Program-made: the position numbers and the translations under genes
Notes under the pieces: generated by a model
What the model was told of the DNA's origin: nothing
The model's database searches: none
What the model saw: the letters and a program-made list of their open reading frames with translations, nothing else
DNA from: Parabacteroides sp.
Lineage (GTDB): Bacteria; Bacteroidota; Bacteroidia; Bacteroidales; Tannerellaceae
NCBI GenBank assembly: GCA_022775005.1
Contig: JALFJR010000085.1
Span: 1-48,982 of the forward strand
Length of the DNA stretch: 48,982 bases
Direction of reading: 5' to 3'
Shown here: positions 7,159 through 15,090 of the stretch, in pieces
Layout: the number at the start of each line of letters is the position of its first letter
Position numbering within the stretch: position 1 is the stretch's first letter

Positions 7159-7223
7159 CGAAATAAATGCGATAAGCGGAATTGTGTCGCAAAAATAACA
7201 AATTGTTCGGATTGCCCTGACAG

Positions 7224-7292
7224 CGGTTGAGCCGGGGAAATGTTGCCTTGTTACCTGTTACCCGCTTTGATTTTGCATATATCCCTGAAGGC
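7224..7292 (+). repeat. GTTACC-rich repeat element, copy A
   Basis: The 50 nt at 7243-7292 match 8701-8750 at 48 of 50 positions. The element contains tandem GTTACC hexamers followed by TTTTGCATATATCCCTGAAGG. It begins with GCGGTTGAGC, which recurs immediately in copy B. Confidence 0.85.
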
Positions 7293-7328
7293 GGTTGAGC
7301 GGAAATGTTGCCTTGTTACCCGTTACCT
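7292..7328 (+). repeat. GTTACC-rich repeat element, copy B (partial)
   Basis: This copy repeats the GCGGTTGAGC, GAAATGTTGCC and GTTACC portion of copy A in direct tandem but lacks the TTTTGCATATATCC half. It ends at a GC-rich near-palindrome (7340-7359, ATATCG arms around alternating GC). Confidence 0.8.
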
Positions 7329-7530
7329 TACTTTCAGTATATCGTGCGCGCGCGATATGTAGTAATACATATCCTTCCTAAAGAATAGATAGAGAAGAAG
7401 AGAGAGAAAGATAGAGAAAGAGGAAAAGGAAAAGGTGGGGTGGAGGTGGCCAATCCCGATCGACTCCTCCGCTAAAGGCCTATAGAGGGGAAGCAGATCG
7501 GGGGAGGTCAGCTCAGGGTGAAAAATCCGG
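7329..7530. other. Non-coding stretch with near-palindrome and purine tract
   Basis: No credible gene is visible. The stretch holds a near-perfect 20-bp palindrome at 7340-7359 (one T-G pair) and a run of roughly 60 nt that is almost all purine on the plus strand from about 7381. The only open frame (minus, 7323-7565) is low in complexity and runs through the repeats. Confidence 0.6.
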
Positions 7531-7577
7531 GTATATACAAAATTTAGGCGGGTAACAGGTAACAAGGCAACATTTCC
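7531..7577 (-). repeat. GTTACC-rich repeat element, copy C (inverted)
   Basis: The reverse complement reads GGAAATGTTGCC, tandem GTTACC, then a TTTTGTATATAC half. This matches copy A in inverted orientation, so copies A/B and C face each other across the purine tract. Confidence 0.85.
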
Positions 7578-7719: not shown

Positions 7720-8592
7720 TTATAGTTGAGCAATCTCCTCAGGGGAGAGGCCACTGTATTTCTGAATCAGCTCAATGGACATTCCATCCGCTTTCATGTT
7801 GCGAGCAATCTCTAAGCGTCCTTCTGCACGCCCTTTGGCCAATCCTTTGGCTAATCCTTCCTCACGCCCCTTCTTTAGCCCTCGTTGCTCAGCGCTTTCC
7901 AATACGCAGAGGGTGTCACGATACTTGCGGAGGGCCACATCGTAGTAGAGACGCTCCTCCTTGGTCAGCGAGCTGACATCCGCTATCTCTGCCAGCTTCT
8001 GAAATACTGAGTTTTGTGCCGCCCACGGCAATCGCTTTATCGTTTCCATATTCTTCAATACATAAATCCAACGATCAAAATCATTCTCACATTCATCCAC
8101 CCCTTTCTCGAAGAGGGGTAGCTGTAAATAGACCAGTCGGAGCTTATCGGAGAAAATCTCCTTGCTCTTCTTGTTCATCAGCATCACGTCCGTCCGGAAC
8201 TCCTCGCCGATATCCGGCCTTCGGAAATTCAGGAAGGCGATCAGATAGACACCCTTGATGTCATACTGCCATTTCGGTCCTTTCTCCCCTTGTCGGGCGA
8301 TGGCCTCCGAGACGTAGTAGATGCTCCTCCGCTTGAAGTAGGACTGCTCGCAGTTTTGCATTTCCACGATGATCTTCTCGTCGTCATCCAGTTCGCAATA
8401 GATGTCATAGATCAGCGAGCGGTCATCCACGAACACAGGAGGCAGTTCCTTGTCGAGGAACTTGAGGTTGACGATCCGCTTCTCGCCGATCAACAGGTTA
8501 TTCAGGAAGTCGATCAAAAGCGGCTTGGAAAGTTCCTGCCCAAAGATACGTTTGAAGCCAATGTCCGTAAAAGGATTGATGTAATTTGCCAT
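7720..8592 (-). CDS. Rpn family recombination-promoting nuclease / PD-(D/E)XK transposase-like protein
   Basis: A 290-residue protein of the Rpn (PD-(D/E)XK nuclease family transposase) group. The start is set at the ATG at 8590-8592 because the opening MANYINPFTDIGFKRIFG is the conserved N-terminus; a longer frame adds 17 atypical residues. The nuclease core is visible as DDRSLIYDIYCELDD followed by IIVEMQNCEQ, giving the D...E-x-Q catalytic pattern. The C-terminus has the typical tandem GLAKG-type charged repeats and ends SGLSPEEIAQL, as in many relatives. Known members are DNA endonucleases that stimulate RecA-independent recombination; some appear to act in phage defence. It is flanked by copies of the GTTACC repeat. 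The frame remains open after the stop codon (see findings). Confidence 0.92.
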   Translation of the reverse strand: MANYINPFTDIGFKRIFGQELSKPLLIDFLNNLLIGEKRIVNLKFLDKELPPVFVDDRSLIYDIYCELDDDEKIIVEMQNCEQSYFKRRSIYYVSEAIARQGEKGPKWQYDIKGVYLIAFLNFRRPDIGEEFRTDVMLMNKKSKEIFSDKLRLVYLQLPLFEKGVDECENDFDRWIYVLKNMETIKRLPWAAQNSVFQKLAEIADVSSLTKEERLYYDVALRKYRDTLCVLESAEQRGLKKGREEGLAKGLAKGRAEGRLEIARNMKADGMSIELIQKYSGLSPEEIAQL

Positions 8593-8700
8593 AGTTAATG
8601 AGTTTTGTTGGTTACGGTGGCAAAAGAACGAATTTTCCGCCACTTTTCCAAATGGCTACAGGAGAAAAGCAGGCGAGAAAGGTGGCCCCTTGCCGTGTAT

Positions 8701-8750
8701 GTTACCTTGTTACCTGTTACCCGCTTTAATTTTGCATATATCCCTGAAGG
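8701..8750 (+). repeat. GTTACC-rich repeat element, copy D
   Basis: Forty-eight of 50 positions are identical to copy A (7243-7292) in the same orientation. It lies between the Rpn gene and the HU-like gene, 50 bp upstream of the HU promoter. Confidence 0.9.
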
Positions 8751-8796
8751 GGGCGTGGCGATCTGGGACAAGAGCGCATCAAATGCGGGACAAGTA

Positions 8797-8827
8797 TTGG
8801 CGATGTGGGAAGGAGGTTGTATCTTTG
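8797..8827 (+). promoter_or_regulatory. Promoter of the HU-like gene
   Basis: A TTGG (-33) and TATCTTTG (-7, 8820-8827) separated by 19 bp match the Bacteroidetes consensus. The leader to the ATG at 8886 is about 50 nt and ends in a pyrimidine-rich tract. Confidence 0.7.
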
Positions 8828-8885
8828 CATTGTGATTGATTATCATCCTTTAATGTCTAACCCTTTAACTTTAACTTTTTCAGCT

Positions 8886-9371
8886 ATGAGTATCAAAGTG
8901 AAAGCGGTCGAGCGCAACGTGTCGTTCGACAAGAACGTGGAGAAGTGGGCCTATGTGATGCAGGCCGAGTTGTATAGCAAGCTCCCGCAGAGCAAGGTGA
9001 TCCAGGAGGCGGCCACCCGTAGCGGCATCGCCAAGGGGAGCATCAACGCGGCGTGGGAGGCGATCGGCGAGGTGATCAAGGCGTGGGCCACTGAGGGCCA
9101 TTCCGTGGCGATCCCAGGACTGGGCTGTATGCGCTTCGGCTTGCGTGCCACCTCGGTGAGCGACGTGAACTTAGTGGGATCGGGCCTGATCACGAGCCGA
9201 CGGGTGATCTTCACCCCGAACGTGGAGATTAAGAACGAGCTTGCCCGCACGGGTGTCAGCATCACCTGCTACGACCGCAACGGCAACATCGTGAAGCGTG
9301 TCACCTCTACGGACGAGGGCAACGTGGAGGAGCCTGAGCCTGAGGAGCCGTCTAACCCTGATGTCGTCTGA
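8886..9371 (+). CDS. HU-like DNA-binding protein (HU-HIG type)
   Basis: A 161-residue member of the HU/IHF superfamily as found in Bacteroidetes, longer than classical HU (about 90 residues). The start MSIKVKAVERNV is chosen over an upstream ATG because it matches the family opening and the promoter places transcription at about 8834. The core has the helix pair (KVIQEAATRSGIAKGSINAAW), the GHSVAIPGLGCMRFGLRA segment and a beta arm with the family-typical NLVGSGLITSRRVIFTP. The acidic tail EEPEPEEP is unstructured. Such proteins bend DNA; a specific target is unknown. The following small membrane protein starts 5 bp downstream. Confidence 0.88.
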   Translation: MSIKVKAVERNVSFDKNVEKWAYVMQAELYSKLPQSKVIQEAATRSGIAKGSINAAWEAIGEVIKAWATEGHSVAIPGLGCMRFGLRATSVSDVNLVGSGLITSRRVIFTPNVEIKNELARTGVSITCYDRNGNIVKRVTSTDEGNVEEPEPEEPSNPDVV

Positions 9372-9376
9372 CGGCC

Positions 9377-9616
9377 ATGCGGACGTTTCGACTGACGCTC
9401 GCTCTCTCGATCCTGCTCATCGTGGGTGGTTTCATCTGCCCGCCGATGGGCGTGATTGACGGGAGTGTCTTGACGGCCGTGGGGCTGCTGCTGGCTTTCG
9501 CCTCCCTCGCCCAGCTGCCGCTCTTGATCGAGGCGGCCAAGGGGGGCAGGCGGATCCGCCTGCAGAAGGGGGATTTCACGGCCGAGGTCTCGTCGGAGCC
9601 GGATGGCCCGCCTTAA
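9377..9616 (+). CDS. Small two-helix membrane protein of unknown function
   Basis: Encodes 79 residues with two hydrophobic segments (about 8-24 and 31-51) separated by a short loop, CPPMGVIDGS, and a basic, soluble tail (KGGRRIRLQKGDF). It starts 5 bp after the HU-like gene, so co-transcription is likely. I do not recognise a family. The tail is probably cytoplasmic on the positive-inside rule. No catalytic residues are apparent. Confidence 0.6.
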   Translation: MRTFRLTLALSILLIVGGFICPPMGVIDGSVLTAVGLLLAFASLAQLPLLIEAAKGGRRIRLQKGDFTAEVSSEPDGPP

Positions 9617-9665
9617 CACCTTACCACCTTACTTGCTTACTTTCGGTGGGGTGGTGGTGGTGTTT

Positions 9666-9846
9666 AGGGGAATTATCCGTACTTTTGCGGGCATAATTGC
9701 AAAAGAGATGAGAATAGAGCAGAATTATTCGTTGGCGGAACACAACACGTTCCACCTCCCGGTCAAGACTCGTTGGTTTATGGAGTATGCGACGGAGGAG
9801 GAATTAGGGCGCATCCTGAGGGATGAGTATTTCCAAGAGTGTTTCT
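9666..9846 (+). repeat. Left copy of 181-bp direct repeat (murB promoter and 5' end)
   Basis: Identical to 12380-12560 at 180 of 181 positions. The only difference is C at 9746 versus T at 12460, a silent change in an Asn codon. The repeat includes the -7 element TACTTTTG (9680-9687) and codons 1-46 of murB. Homology stops abruptly at both ends. Confidence 0.98.
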
Positions 9847-9965
9847 TCAAAATAATAAGTAACAATTATTTGTCTTTTTCTGTCATTTCTATTATTTTTG
9901 TTCATAAAATCAGTATGTATTATACACCTAATTATTATCTATATCATGAAAAAGACTTTTTTTAA
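9708..9965 (+). pseudogene. Truncated murB 5' fragment
   Basis: The frame opens exactly like murB (MRIEQNYSLAEHNTFHLP) and follows it for 46 residues. It then runs into unrelated AT-rich sequence for 39 codons before a stop. It lacks the FAD-binding and catalytic parts, so it cannot be a working reductase. It is the left half of the duplication around the inserted gene pair. The -33 region in front of this copy differs from that of the intact gene and is a poorer match. Confidence 0.93.
9869..9900 (+). promoter_or_regulatory. Promoter of the inserted gene pair
   Basis: TTTG (9869-9872) and TATTTTTG (9893-9900) are separated by exactly 20 bp, a full Bacteroidetes promoter. It lies just inside the insert, so the cargo has its own transcription signal. 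Confidence 0.75.
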
Positions 9966-10926
9966 AGCAGCTTTGCTATTTCTACTACTATTATTCTTTA
10001 TTCCTAAATCTTTGTCTGCGAAGGGAAAGAATGATTTGAGACTTGTCGGTGATGTGCCTTTCCCTGTAACAATTGTGGCGGGCACGGATGTCTATACAGA
10101 TGTCACTCTTCCTATTGATATTGATGTTAAAAAAGCGAAGTTTCTATTCATATACGCTCCTGGATATCGAGCACAGACTGTGAAACTTGAACGCTCTGGC
10201 CATAATGTTGTGGGTATGATGGCATTCGGAATAGCCGCTTATAAGAAGAGTAAGCTTTTAGCTACTGAAATTGATGTGACATTAGATCCTTCCGACATCA
10301 CAGAGAGGTATCTGACAGATATAGCAACCTTTTACTATGATAATGGAGAAAAAAAGGAGGCAGTTACCTATTTGAACAGCTTTTTGGATCTTTATCCCGA
10401 AGACTTAGAGGCAAATGGAATATTAGACCGGATGGCTGCGGATGAACAGGAAAAGGCGGAAAAACGGGAGAGGAGATATAATACATGGATGAATATCGGT
10501 AATGCGTTGGCTGCCGCAGGAAATGCCATGCAAGGTAATTCAGTTCCCGCTAACACCTCTTATTCAGCTACAGACCTGGATAATAGTGATACGAATAGCG
10601 CATATGCAGTGGAGGAAGAAACCGCTAATTGCCAATTCTATCAAGATTCCTATGCGCGGGCTGAACGCAATGCGAAATCATGCTATGAGGCATTGGCGAA
10701 TGCCGTTAGAGTGAAAAAGAATGGTCAGGATGTAGAAGGTGGGCGTCAAGTTGAGCTTGGGAATATAGTAACGACAAACAGGTTGCAAAAGAATCTGCGT
10801 GAAACGCAGAAAAGGATGCAAGAGATCAGAATGAAATCCGCCAGAAAAGGATGTTCTATACCCCAATCCAATTATGAGACAATCAGCGTTACGACGACTG
10901 GGGTTGATTTGAGAATGGATAATTAA
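9946..10926 (+). CDS. Exported protein of unknown function with TPR-like helices
   Basis: A 326-residue protein with a clear signal peptide (MKKTFFKAALLFLLLLFF, cleavage near SLSA/KG). The start at 9946 is preferred because it gives a normal signal peptide 46 nt after the -7 box. Residues about 30-115 are beta-rich and resemble an Ig/PEGA-like surface domain by pattern only. Residues 116-165 (TDIATFYYDNGEKKEAVTYLNSF) look like one or two tetratricopeptide helices, followed by a charged coiled coil. The second half is rich in polar residues with scattered cysteines. I do not recognise a named family. The codon and base composition is more AT-rich than the flanks, consistent with acquired DNA. 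The Sel1 protein gene follows 12 bp downstream. Confidence 0.75.
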   Translation: MKKTFFKAALLFLLLLFFIPKSLSAKGKNDLRLVGDVPFPVTIVAGTDVYTDVTLPIDIDVKKAKFLFIYAPGYRAQTVKLERSGHNVVGMMAFGIAAYKKSKLLATEIDVTLDPSDITERYLTDIATFYYDNGEKKEAVTYLNSFLDLYPEDLEANGILDRMAADEQEKAEKRERRYNTWMNIGNALAAAGNAMQGNSVPANTSYSATDLDNSDTNSAYAVEEETANCQFYQDSYARAERNAKSCYEALANAVRVKKNGQDVEGGRQVELGNIVTTNRLQKNLRETQKRMQEIRMKSARKGCSIPQSNYETISVTTTGVDLRMDN

Positions 10927-10938
10927 ATCAGATAGCTT

Positions 10939-12189
10939 ATGAAACACAATGTACTTCATCAGTTAGCCATCGGGTTTACCTTGTTCGTTTTGTCAAGTTT
11001 CGTTTGCCCGACGGTGACATTCTGCCAAATTGCAGGGATAGATTATATACAAAAAGCGCTTGAGGCAGACAAGCGGGGAGATCTCTCATTGGCGACCTCT
11101 TATTATCATATTGCGGCAGAAGCGGGGAATGCGGAATCGCAATATATGTTGGGCTGTCGCTATCTTTTGGGTAAAGGTGTGGCTGTGGATCATGCTGAGG
11201 GTGCTAAATGGATACGAAAAGCGGCCGAACAGGGATATCGCAGCGCTCAAAGCAGTATGGGCGTTTGTTATGAAAGTGGCATGGGGGTCCCACAAGACAA
11301 TAACGAAGCGATAAAATGGTATCGAAAAGCGGCCGCACAAGGTGATGCCAGTGCCATAAAAGCACTCCAGGAATTAGCCGATAGTGATGATGTGGTCAGA
11401 AAAGGTTTGGATGCATATAAAGCGAAGAACTATGCGGAGGCTGTAAAATGGCTTAGGCCTGCGGCTGAGCAGGGGAATGATGCCGCACAGGATGCACTGG
11501 GCATGTGTTATGAGTTTGGCAATGGTGTGGCCAAAGATCATGCGGAAGCTTTAAAATGGTATCGAAAAGCGGCCGCACAAGGAAATGTCAGCGCCCAAGA
11601 ATCTGTGAAAAAATTAACCGTCCAGGCAAAGAGCGCAGGGAATTCTTCGAAAGCGTCTGCGTCAACTCAGTCTAAGACAAATAACAGCAAAGAGAATTCA
11701 AAACCGACGAAGGGGACTGCGCCAAGAACATTCATTGGCTGCAAGTTGAGAGTATCCACGATCTCAGATGTGAAAGCTCAGTTGGCATTGCGATCGTTGA
11801 CTCCAACTGTGACTAAGGATGGTAGTTTATTCTTTTATTTCCGAAATGCTGATCATAAGAAGATTGATGAGATTATGCCTCAATTTTGTGGAACATGGTG
11901 GCAATCGGCTGCTTTTTCATTTTTAAACGATGGGAAACTTGACCAGATTAGAATGATGAATACATATTCCGATATTATGTATGCTGAAATTTATTATGAT
12001 ATTCTAAGAGATTATATTTTAGAGCATTATCATTTTGTTTCTAAATCCAAGAGTCCTCTTGCGAAAAAGAATGATTATGAAGAGTTAGGGCACTTATTCT
12101 TCAATGCGGGCGTTACAACTTATGTCTTAATATATGGTTATTCTTCAGGAAATCCATTTGTGTCTTTGAAGATCTCGCATACAGATTGA
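10939..12189 (+). CDS. Exported Sel1-repeat protein
   Basis: A 416-residue protein with a signal peptide (cleavage near TFCQ/IA). Two blocks of Sel1-type repeats span roughly residues 35-150 and 155-235, with the recurring pattern EAxKWYRKAAAQGxxxAQ. Sel1 repeats form helical solenoids used for protein-protein contacts. A 31-nt stretch encoding this motif is identical at 11312-11342 and 11552-11582, pointing to recent internal duplication. A linker rich in Ser/Lys/Asn leads to a C-terminal domain of about 150 residues (from FIGCKLRV) that I do not recognise. Together with the upstream exported protein it forms the cargo inserted at murB. The function is unknown; periplasmic location is inferred. 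Confidence 0.85.
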   Translation: MKHNVLHQLAIGFTLFVLSSFVCPTVTFCQIAGIDYIQKALEADKRGDLSLATSYYHIAAEAGNAESQYMLGCRYLLGKGVAVDHAEGAKWIRKAAEQGYRSAQSSMGVCYESGMGVPQDNNEAIKWYRKAAAQGDASAIKALQELADSDDVVRKGLDAYKAKNYAEAVKWLRPAAEQGNDAAQDALGMCYEFGNGVAKDHAEALKWYRKAAAQGNVSAQESVKKLTVQAKSAGNSSKASASTQSKTNNSKENSKPTKGTAPRTFIGCKLRVSTISDVKAQLALRSLTPTVTKDGSLFFYFRNADHKKIDEIMPQFCGTWWQSAAFSFLNDGKLDQIRMMNTYSDIMYAEIYYDILRDYILEHYHFVSKSKSPLAKKNDYEELGHLFFNAGVTTYVLIYGYSSGNPFVSLKISHTD

Positions 12190-12250
12190 GACATAAAATG
12201 ATCGTGTAAAATGAACTGTGTCATACATTATTTTCTGTAGAAAACTAACT

Positions 12251-12284
12251 GTAGAGACGTGCCACTACAGTGTGACGTCTCTAC
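12251..12284 (+). terminator. Palindromic hairpin after the inserted gene pair
   Basis: GTAGAGACGT (12251-12260) and its complement (12275-12284) form a perfect 10-bp stem with a 14-nt loop. There is no strong T run. The same arms occur at 19615 and 42639, so this is a member of a small palindrome family that may also act as a terminator. Confidence 0.6.
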
Positions 12285-12368
12285 TTATTCGGTGGGGGCG
12301 GTGATTGTTGTAGAGGATGGGCTTGCGAACGGGCCGTCCTCTTTTGCCGTTTATTTTAGGACGGTCGG

Positions 12369-12401
12369 TTGGTGGAAAGAGGGGAATTATCCGTACTTTT
12401 G
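12369..12401 (+). promoter_or_regulatory. Promoter of murB
   Basis: TTGG (12369-12372), a 21-bp spacer and TACTTTTG (12394-12401) match the Bacteroidetes consensus. The start codon follows 20 nt later. The -7 part lies within the 181-bp repeat, while the -33 part lies just outside it. Confidence 0.7.
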
Positions 12402-12560
12402 CGGGCATAATTGCAAAAGAGATGAGAATAGAGCAGAATTATTCGTTGGCGGAACACAATACGTTCCACCTCCCGGTCAAGACTCGTTGGTTTATGGAGT
12501 ATGCGACGGAGGAGGAATTAGGGCGCATCCTGAGGGATGAGTATTTCCAAGAGTGTTTCT
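12380..12560 (+). repeat. Right copy of 181-bp direct repeat (start of intact murB)
   Basis: Pairs with 9666-9846 (180/181 identity). This copy is continuous with the complete murB gene. The distance between copies is 2,714 bp. Confidence 0.98.
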
Positions 12561-13432
12561 CGCTGCATATAGGAGGGGGTAGTAATCTTTTATTTATCAA
12601 TGACTTCAATGGTATCGTGCTGCATTCGTGCATCAAGGGGATTACCTGCGTGAGGGAGACCGATTCCGAGGTCTTTTTGCGTGTGGGTGCCGCCGAGGTG
12701 TGGGACGAGGTGGTGGACTACGCCGTGGAGCGGGGCTGGGGAGGTATCGAGAACCTCTCGCTGATCCCGGGCGAGACGGGGGCGGCCGCCGTGCAGAATA
12801 TCGGGGCCTACGGGGTGGAGATCAAGGACGTGATCGAAAGCGTGGAGGCTTATAACCAGCTGACGTTCGAGAAGCGGGTGTTCAGCCGGGAGGAGTGCGC
12901 CTACGGCTATCGCGACAGCTTTTTCAAGGATGAGCAGCATGATCCTTATATCGTGACCTACGTGACGTTGCGCTTGGCTAAGCAGCCCGCTTACGTCTTG
13001 ACCTATGGGCAGTTGCGGGCGCGCTTGGGGGATGAGCCGGTGACGTTGAGCCGTGTGCGCAAGGCGGTGATCGCGATCCGGAAAGAGAAATTGCCCGATC
13101 CCGCTGTGCTGGGCAACGCGGGCAGCTTCTTCAAGAATCCGGTGATCTCGACCGCCCAATACGAGGAGCTGAAACGGCGCTATCCGGAGATGCCTGCCTA
13201 TGTGCTCTCAGAGCAGGAGGTGAAGGTGCCGGCGGGTTGGCTGATCGAGGCTTGTGGTTTCAAGGGCAAGCAGCATGGCCCTGTGGGGGTGTATGAGAAG
13301 CAGGCGTTGGTCTTGGTGAACTTGGGCGACGCCACGGGGCATGAGATCGCCTTGGTGGCGGAGAGCATCCGGGCGGCTGTCGATGACCGGTTCGGGATCG
13401 AGCTGATGCCGGAGGTCAAATATGTCAGTTAG
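12422..13432 (+). CDS. murB: UDP-N-acetylmuramate dehydrogenase
   Basis: A 336-residue FAD enzyme that reduces UDP-GlcNAc-enolpyruvate to UDP-MurNAc in peptidoglycan synthesis. The start MRIEQNYSLAEHNTF is set by the family opening; longer frames read through the promoter. FAD-binding signatures are present: LHIGGGSNLLF at about residue 48 and the IPGETGAAAVQNIGAYGVE block around 115. Near the C-terminus are GNAGSFFKNP (the catalytic Ser region) and the AGWLIEACGFKG segment. Length and order fit the long (type I) MurB form. The first 46 codons and part of the promoter are duplicated 2.7 kb upstream. The MBL-fold gene begins at the base directly after the stop codon. Confidence 0.97.
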   Translation: MRIEQNYSLAEHNTFHLPVKTRWFMEYATEEELGRILRDEYFQECFSLHIGGGSNLLFINDFNGIVLHSCIKGITCVRETDSEVFLRVGAAEVWDEVVDYAVERGWGGIENLSLIPGETGAAAVQNIGAYGVEIKDVIESVEAYNQLTFEKRVFSREECAYGYRDSFFKDEQHDPYIVTYVTLRLAKQPAYVLTYGQLRARLGDEPVTLSRVRKAVIAIRKEKLPDPAVLGNAGSFFKNPVISTAQYEELKRRYPEMPAYVLSEQEVKVPAGWLIEACGFKGKQHGPVGVYEKQALVLVNLGDATGHEIALVAESIRAAVDDRFGIELMPEVKYVS

Positions 13433-14194
13433 ATGAAAATCATTTTTTTAGGAACGGGCACCTCGACGGGTAATCCGGAGATCGGGTGCACCTGTGAGGT
13501 GTGTACCAGCAGCGATCCACGGGATTGGCGGCTGCGTGCCTCTGTCTTGGTGGAGGTGGCGGGGAAGCGGCTCTTGATTGATTGCGGGCCCGATTTCCGC
13601 TATCAGATGCTCCGGGCGAGGTGCTATCACTTGGATGCGGTGCTGCTGACGCATGAGCATTACGACCACGTCGGGGGGTTGGATGACCTGCGCCCCTATA
13701 GCCGGGAGAGGGATGTGGATATTTACACGGAGGCCAACGTGGTGGAGGCGATCCGGACTCGCATGCCCTACGTTTTCCGGGCGCATAAGTACCCCGGAGT
13801 GCCCAATTTGGTGCTGCATACCGTGGGTTTGGCCCCGTTTGAGGCGGCTGGTGTGCGGATTCAACCCGTCCGGGTGATGCATGCCAAGCTGCCGATCTTG
13901 GGTTTCCGCATCGGCGATTTTGCCTACTTGACCGATTTGAAATACCTCCCGGAGGAGGAGTTTGCGAAGTTAGCGGGGTTGGAGGTGCTGGTGATTGACG
14001 CCTTGCGACGGGGCACGCACCTCTCGCACGAGGGGTTGGAGGAGGCGCTCGTCAACATCGCCCGCATTCGCCCCAAGCTGGCCTATCTGACGCACATGTG
14101 CCATCGGATCGGATTGCATGAAGAGATTGAGAAGCAGCTTCCCCCGGGCGTGCATTATGCCTACGACGGGCTGGAACTGACACTGCCCGGATAG
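13433..14194 (+). CDS. MBL-fold metallo-hydrolase, PhnP-like
   Basis: A 253-residue metallo-beta-lactamase-fold hydrolase. It opens MKIIFLGTGTSTGNPEIGC with the GCTCEVC cysteine pair that binds a structural zinc in PhnP-like proteins. The two-metal motif is THEHYDHVGG at about residues 73-82; further metal ligands are VMHAK, LTDLKY and the C-terminal THMCHRIG. PhnP itself is a cyclic phosphodiesterase; in Bacteroidetes the physiological substrate of this branch is not known to me. The ATG abuts the murB stop with no gap, so the genes are co-transcribed and probably translationally coupled, but a link to peptidoglycan synthesis is not established. Confidence 0.9.
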   Translation: MKIIFLGTGTSTGNPEIGCTCEVCTSSDPRDWRLRASVLVEVAGKRLLIDCGPDFRYQMLRARCYHLDAVLLTHEHYDHVGGLDDLRPYSRERDVDIYTEANVVEAIRTRMPYVFRAHKYPGVPNLVLHTVGLAPFEAAGVRIQPVRVMHAKLPILGFRIGDFAYLTDLKYLPEEEFAKLAGLEVLVIDALRRGTHLSHEGLEEALVNIARIRPKLAYLTHMCHRIGLHEEIEKQLPPGVHYAYDGLELTLPG

Positions 14195-14202
14195 GAGCTT
14201 TT

Positions 14203-15090
14203 TTAGTGCGCCTTGAAGGCGAAATAGGCGCTTTTCTCTTCCTGGGTCGCTTCTAACTCGATCTGCACGCCGGGCAGCAGGGGCTGGAGCCGGAGGGAGA
14301 GGCTGTCTCGCAAGGGCTCCAACCAGTGGGTTGCCACGAGCGAGTCGGGCAGGGAAGTTGGCAAGGGCCACTCCTGGAAGCAGCACAGATTGCCCTCGTT
14401 GAAGAAGAAGGAGAGCGAGAGCCACCGACGGGCCGGGGCGGCCTCACGCAGCGCTTCGGCCGGGAACAGCCGTTCGGTAGGCAGGAGCAGCTGGAGAGGG
14501 ACTGTCGTGGAGGCGAGGGCTTGCAGCTCCGCTACCGCCGTGTCGGTCGTGCGCAAGCGCAGTTGTTGCTTGATGGTCTCTCGCACCAGCTGGCGGTTGT
14601 AGGAGGCCACGAAAATCCCTTGTTGATAATAGCAGCCCAAGAAGCGCTTGCCCCGCTCGGGGTAGTAGCGCACGGGGATGGTCAGCTCCGTCTGCTCCTC
14701 GGGGGCGAAGGAGTGGCTGGCGTCGAGCCGTTTCCACAGCTGTTTGGCTTCCCGCTCGGTGAGGGCGGCCATCCAGACTTCGCCTTCCGGATAATAGACC
14801 AACGTGAAGGGGAGCCATTCGCCGATGCGCTCGGGCTGGCAGAGCGGATTTTCTGGGAGGTAGGCCCGGAGCAGCCGTTCGACGGCTGGCAGCGAGGGCA
14901 TCATCAGCTGGAGGGTTGGCGGTTGGTGCAGGCGGAGCACCGCTTTGGGGGGCTCGATAATCAGCGCGATGGGATCTGCCCCGTCGATGGCTTGGGCCGT
15001 GCGGATCTTCTCCGACAGCGCACGGATGCCCATGAAGGCAACGGCTGCCAGCAAGAGGATCCAGGCCATGTCGCGGGGCGATCGTTTCAT
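14203..15090 (-). CDS. Membrane-anchored protein of unknown function
   Basis: A 295-residue protein with one N-terminal hydrophobic helix (WILLLAAVAFMGI, residues 10-22) and a long exported part. I recognise no catalytic motif. The remainder is a mixed alpha/beta domain that appears to contain two related halves, each with an aromatic strand pattern (LVYYPEGEVWMAAL and LSFFFNEGNLCCF). The start codon overlaps the nth stop as ATGA (15087-15090), so it is translated from the nth message. Orthology within Bacteroidales seems likely but is unverified. Confidence 0.75.
   Translation of the reverse strand: MKRSPRDMAWILLLAAVAFMGIRALSEKIRTAQAIDGADPIALIIEPPKAVLRLHQPPTLQLMMPSLPAVERLLRAYLPENPLCQPERIGEWLPFTLVYYPEGEVWMAALTEREAKQLWKRLDASHSFAPEEQTELTIPVRYYPERGKRFLGCYYQQGIFVASYNRQLVRETIKQQLRLRTTDTAVAELQALASTTVPLQLLLPTERLFPAEALREAAPARRWLSLSFFFNEGNLCCFQEWPLPTSLPDSLVATHWLEPLRDSLSLRLQPLLPGVQIELEATQEEKSAYFAFKAH

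Follow-up and report, generated by a model that had tools for sequence, protein, structure and literature searches.

Here, we describe the region around murB in a stretch of 48,982 nucleotides from a Parabacteroides sp. (contig JALFJR010000085.1 of assembly GCA_022775005.1; the whole stretch is hereafter called the window), in which two low-GC genes, gene 1 and gene 2, lie directly upstream of this essential gene and between two direct copies of its 5' end. We favour, with moderate confidence, an origin by homologous or illegitimate recombination with partial duplication of the target, followed by a small deletion in the left copy. The two-gene module itself was probably acquired horizontally, as judged from its composition and its distribution among relatives, and murB would have stayed alive thanks to a right copy that was at no time interrupted. 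The likelihoods that we attach to the five explanations weighed below are judgements and not computed values.

The duplicated 5' end of murB

The two repeat copies (Table 1) are identical at 180 of 181 bases, and both start 42 bases 5' of the murB ATG and end at codon 46. The single mismatch (C at 9746, T at 12460) is silent, and the exact runs common to both copies are 80 and 100 bases long. In a comparison of the window with itself the pair is far beyond chance (E 2.3e-88), while the remaining direct pairs at E ≤ 1e-5 are at most 55 bp long or fall within gene 2, and the repeat sequence matches just these two places in its own genome (3.14 Mb in 109 contigs). The coordinates, direct orientation, identity and silent change are exactly those of the original prediction, a reading of the letters of the window, which had also called the left copy a dead fragment; this copy is indeed cut at both ends and stops at codon 46, and the open reading frame (ORF) that starts in it is probably a dead by-product. 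An assembly or strain-mixture artefact might come to mind for a genome in 109 contigs that is known from assembly alone, but we find it hardly credible. Words of more than 100 bases separate the copies, the longest exact shared run being 100, so simple assembly collapse is unlikely. We take the repeat pair to be real; each copy, moreover, has flanks of its own, and the joint at 9846/9847 should thus rest on real reads.

The comparison set comprised one genome per species. A murB match at E ≤ 0.001 was present in 37 of the 38 genomes of the genus, the one without (G010) being 80% complete. Among 36 named loci the nearest murB relatives are from Parabacteroides, with Tannerella and others at lower identity, and the two nearest are those of G007 (JAFBIR010000006, 94% at the amino acid level), which is another species, and G030 (contig CAMGEM010000143 of a metagenome-assembled genome, 93%), whose contig begins 20 bases before the murB ATG. 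In G007, the counterpart of the 42 bases that precede the right repeat copy (12338-12379) lies directly 5' of murB and is identical at 41 of 42 positions, which is why the right copy looks native; among the 37 congeners, these bases are matched at E ≤ 0.001 in G007 only. Parts of the longer segment 12190-12379 have short matches in G004 (43 bp, 89%) and G011 (39 bp, 82%), and these adjoin genes that, by eye, are unlike the insert genes. On these comparisons the right copy looks native and continuous, with native-looking sequence on both sides, and the left copy has it on neither. Further, at the four positions where the right copy differs from G007 the left copy has the same bases, and the lineage's own murB was therefore the source of the duplicate.

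Within the genus, a second murB 5' fragment occurs in the window's genome only: none turned up in the 36 congeners, out of 37, with a murB match, and an extra murB match in G014 is a distant homologue (27%). Relatives with the same gene pair at murB and no repeat, a case raised by the original prediction, were not seen either, as gene 1 was detected in none of the 37 congeners. In G007 there is a single murB 5' end, with a different spacer of about 490 bp upstream of it, beyond which the contig carries a relative of the left flank of our locus, an arrangement that speaks for the favoured reading. When bases 9618-9680, spanning the left junction, were searched against G007, matches were confined to the first 27 and the last 15 bases.

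The insert differs strongly in composition from its surroundings. The GC content at third codon positions (GC3) is 37.9 and 39.6% in its two genes, versus 77.4% in murB, 75.6% in the next gene and 85.0% in the 79-aa frame of the left flank, and total GC is 41.5 and 43.1% in the two genes and 57.8% in murB. The GC3 comparison covers forward-strand genes, the two reverse-strand genes (7720-8643 and 14203-15090) being left aside. The low GC3, together with the lack of any gene 1 match in the 37 congeners (25 of them with completeness ≥90% and contamination ≤5%), supports a probable horizontal acquisition of the module.

How the layout may have arisen

In the reading that we favour, the two-gene module would have arrived directly upstream of an intact murB, and the 5' end of murB would have been copied to the module's left side, either as the module entered or in a rearrangement soon after. 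We infer two steps in this order. The first would have added the module, the murB promoter and the murB start via a crossover in shared murB 5' sequence, for example through a re-sealed circle or a tandem duplication, with the joint 9846/9847 as a random end at codon 46; the second, a small deletion in the left copy, would have removed the upstream 42 bases together with the native spacer and produced the doubly cut fragment. The joint is compatible with such a random-end crossover, and no gene 1 relative was found with its surroundings. A tandem duplication had been the second option of the original prediction, and an origin of the duplication type is the one that fits best. The simplest version, in which a circle integrates in one step by a single crossover within the 181 bp alone, was rejected: it predicts the native-looking flank at the left copy, and that flank stands at the right.

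Several points weigh against this account. The comparisons come from other species only, with neither an empty site nor an intermediate from the same species, and the deletion is assumed only from the 42 bases missing at the left copy, whose native status in turn rests on one relative, G007, the contig of G030 starting too late to tell and the other congeners showing no match. The left flank belongs to a repeated family: for its 79-aa frame (9421-9617) another G007 contig, C21, matches better than the murB contig (96 vs 92%), and for bases 9618-9644 two places on G007 contig C5 do so as well (96 vs 88%), so that orthology with the relative on the G007 murB contig is likely, not certain. The polarity of the single base difference between the copies is ambiguous, with T in G007 and C in G030, and the low divergence from G007 at the right 5' end could mean that this end was itself imported from a G007-like donor.

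This low divergence is part of an uneven pattern along murB. Relative to G007, substitutions number 5 in 12338-12603 (266 bp), 84 in 12604-13231 (628 bp) and none in 13232-13461 (230 bp), with limits set by eye and without a statistical test, gaps uncounted, and G030 starting 20 bases before the ATG. The last of these tracts runs from the 3' end of murB into the beginning of the next gene, and G030 differs there from both the window and G007; a recent homologous exchange with a G007-like lineage would be the simplest account, and such signs of exchange in murB speak for the favoured reading. For the 5' tract, exchange is suggestive only, and its end lies 43 bases past the repeat end, so that the two ends do not coincide. 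Additionally, G007 and G030 differ from each other at just 2 positions in 12578-12697 (two 60-bp bins) and at more elsewhere, which is perhaps a further exchange tract within murB.

The 5' tract matters for a quite improbable explanation, the one that the original prediction put first, namely that an element integrated at the murB 5' end and supplied a replacement 5' end, with the right copy as the imported piece that rebuilt the gene. The repeat-insert-repeat layout would suit such an element, and the stretch up to 12603, in which the right 5' end diverges little from G007, could have been imported. An element of this kind, however, should have left the left copy next to the native upstream sequence and the right copy next to some other sequence, and the opposite is seen, the right copy carrying the promoter flank of the relative, so the model is not supported. 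It also sits poorly with the same alleles on both copies, which leave host and donor ends indistinguishable, with the lack of an integrase between the repeats, with the lack of any further murB 5' fragment in the 36 congeners, and with the lack of a gene 1 match in the plasmid, phage and viral-contig collections, the viral scan reaching close relatives only. A known example of an integrative element that enters a gene at its 5' end and provides a new one is SXT at prfC. Our locus is like SXT-type elements in that the gene is intact on one side of the insert, and unlike them in the missing integrase, the 181-bp host repeat and the native-looking promoter at the intact gene; an upstream region derived from the element would be expected there, and the comparison with G007 gives the reverse, nor does the arrangement recur in the congeners with a murB match. 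A reading of the repeats as attachment sites was likewise rejected, with no recurrence in congeners and no recombinase.

A second alternative is close in substance to the favoured reading. Insertion with long target duplication, for which Nobusato et al. 2000 is reportedly the source cited, would here have doubled a target of 181 bp or longer as the module entered, with a later deletion on the left, and we regard it as rather unlikely. This mode is described for restriction-modification genes of Helicobacter pylori (PMC1643837, PMC2749054, PMC4978471, PMC3154945). As in those cases, accessory low-GC genes lie between the copies of a long direct host repeat (181 bp, 180/181) with no transposase among them, and G007, although of another species, gives a single match to murB and none to gene 1. 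Unlike them, the cargo is not restriction-modification, two species and not two strains are compared, and the left copy is without its upstream flank, so that one step is insufficient. A one-step long target duplication predicts an empty site whose single copy borders on both outer flanks; in G007, the one relative in which this could be seen, the murB neighbour is the counterpart of 12338-12379 and bases 9643-9665 are unmatched, and a longer duplication with a left deletion would therefore be needed. With this one feature lacking, we place the locus in the broad kind of recombinational acquisition with partial target duplication and not in strict long target duplication.

The main alternative that dispenses with a second step is a templated patch, in which the 181-bp piece of murB would have been copied into the joint by template switching during break repair, with no crossover. 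A copied patch would have two cut ends, as the left copy has, and the right copy is undisturbed, but no further patches were noticed in the joint and 181 bp is long for templated filler, and we consider this improbable.

For the favoured recombination with partial target duplication, a parallel exists in Escherichia coli. In a conjugation assay with 14 sequenced clones, partial target duplications of 109-950 bp were ascribed to single crossovers of circular molecules (PMC3240628). There, single crossover of a circular molecule that lacks part of the homologous end doubles part of the target gene beside the incoming DNA by host recombination, as would be the case here; the differences are that those products come from a laboratory assay and that our locus needs an extra deletion on the left. 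Gene transposition with flanking repeats is also reported from Arabidopsis (PMC2869330). No title among those listed in the literature search concerns this particular locus.

Insert genes and neighbouring sequence

The original prediction had described an AT-rich insert with its own full promoter and two exported proteins. Two low-GC genes on the forward strand are present, each with an N-terminal hydrophobic stretch judged by eye. Neither export nor a full promoter was confirmed, the promoter scan being for sigma-70-type sites, which may not suit the host: Bacteroidota use a promoter type other than sigma-70. The absence of an integrase between the repeats holds, as the only Pfam matches of the two genes are a TPR-like match below the cut-off in gene 1 and Sel1 repeats in gene 2 (E 1.8e-36). 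Sel1 matches are common in the family (54 of 122 other genomes); for the final 171 aa of gene 2, in contrast, no relative was found in 392 other genomes of the order.

Gene 1 has partial likeness to stretches of longer frames in 4 of these 392 genomes, over residues 164-316, 164-317, 130-316 and 132-249 (the last at 23%), and three of the four cover its C-terminal region up to residue 316-317. At two loci, L047 (250-1986) and L048 (1495-3564), the region occurs in longer proteins from two other families of the order, which have similar endings (IPQSNYET and IAQSKWET), and what is common to these and the gene 1 C-terminus is possibly an undescribed domain. No relatives of gene 1 were found in the plasmid, phage, viral-contig or named-genome contig collections, of which the viral-contig and named-genome scans detect close relatives only and may omit the window's own genome. 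In the NCBI family scan both genes match only below curated cut-offs, and in the defence-family scan gene 1 has one weak match (PDC-S11, E 0.0008, residues 164-253) and gene 2 none. Among solved structures, gene 1 matches mostly designed TPR-like chains (best 3.3e-5) and the gene 2 C-terminus has weak matches (best E 0.055), and single-sequence structure models are poor (mean predicted local distance difference test, pLDDT, 53.8 for gene 1 and 59.5 for gene 2, the latter confident in the Sel1 part only). A role in the cell envelope is a guess that the repeats and the signal-like N-termini would allow.

Table 1 Features around the duplicated 5' end of murB (positions in the window).
Feature	Position	Strand	Observation
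Left flank, 79-aa open frame	9377-9616	+	Relative upstream of murB on the same G007 contig (C65 end, 92%, window 9421-9642)
Short G-rich junction, left flank to left repeat copy	9643-9665	+	No match in G007
Left repeat copy, doubly truncated murB fragment	9666-9846	+	Without native upstream 42 bases; ends at codon 46
Fragment ORF, 46 murB codons and 39 unrelated codons	9708-9965	+	Runs 20 bases into the next gene; from translation
Insert gene 1, product of 326 aa with hydrophobic N-terminal stretch and weak TPR-like match	9946-10926	+	
Insert gene 2, product of 416 aa with hydrophobic N-terminal stretch and Sel1 repeats	10939-12189	+	
Inverted repeat after gene 2, perhaps a terminator	12251-12284	+	One place in the genome at ≤3 mismatches
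murB upstream/promoter region	12338-12379	+	Matches the G007 murB upstream at 41 of 42 bases; regarded as native
Right repeat copy, part of the promoter and codons 1-46 of intact murB	12380-12560	+	
murB, intact, 336 aa	12422-13432	+	Pfam MurB_C 7.5e-28; 94% aa identity to G007

The inverted repeat that follows gene 2 was considered as a dispersed repeat and set aside on its single place in the genome. Likewise, a comparison of the left junction (about 9636-9661) with the spacer after the insert (about 12284-12308) gave a score of 13, which 6 of 300 base shuffles reach, and is not significant.

To the left of the repeat, the 79-aa frame and an HU-HIG-like gene (8805-9371) have several relatives in G007, and contigs C21 and C65 of G007 stop at an identical position in the 79-aa gene, as would be the case for a repeated family. 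About 1 kb left of the repeat, a gene on the reverse strand (7720-8643) resembles Rpn-family recombination-promoting nucleases and PD-(D/E)XK transposases (TIGR01784 1.4e-32, PF12784 1.3e-60) and has close copies elsewhere in G007 (93 and 90%); its total GC of 49.2% is nearer to that of the insert genes than to that of murB, and its involvement in the rearrangement is possible. Around it, short repeats of 45-55 bp are dispersed in either orientation (7215-7327, 7529-7577 and 8699-8753), and bits related to these occur at several places in G007.

Of 30 murB loci compared, 27 have an upstream frame, and their gene order upstream of murB is variable. The 30 were taken from the 36 loci, with L087-L089, L092, L094 and L095 omitted, and the three with no upstream frame are L062, L069 and L078. 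The loci of the window's own genome (L001-L003, L033 and L034) were left out of the comparison behind the 41/42 match upstream of murB.

Probable gain of accessory genes beside an essential gene

The layout has the look of an ordinary recombination by-product and not of a mobile element of a new kind, and in the collections searched (congeners, plasmids, phages, viral contigs and named genomes) there was no sign of a mobile family that uses murB. It is very doubtful that the module is a non-autonomous cassette without a recombinase, for which the murB promoter and 46 codons would serve as a homologous landing strip. If this were true, each insertion, or each RecA excision between the 181-bp repeats, would leave a complete murB, and the cargo could spread between strains by transformation, its loss being reversible. 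Should other strains move the same cargo between murB 5' repeats, which the present evidence does not show, the locus would be a simple RecA-dependent exchange cassette. As it stands, with repeat copies identical at all but one base, the locus is a recent-looking example of how a gut bacterium may gain accessory genes beside an essential gene and leave that gene undamaged, with neither a transposase nor an integrase in the insert.

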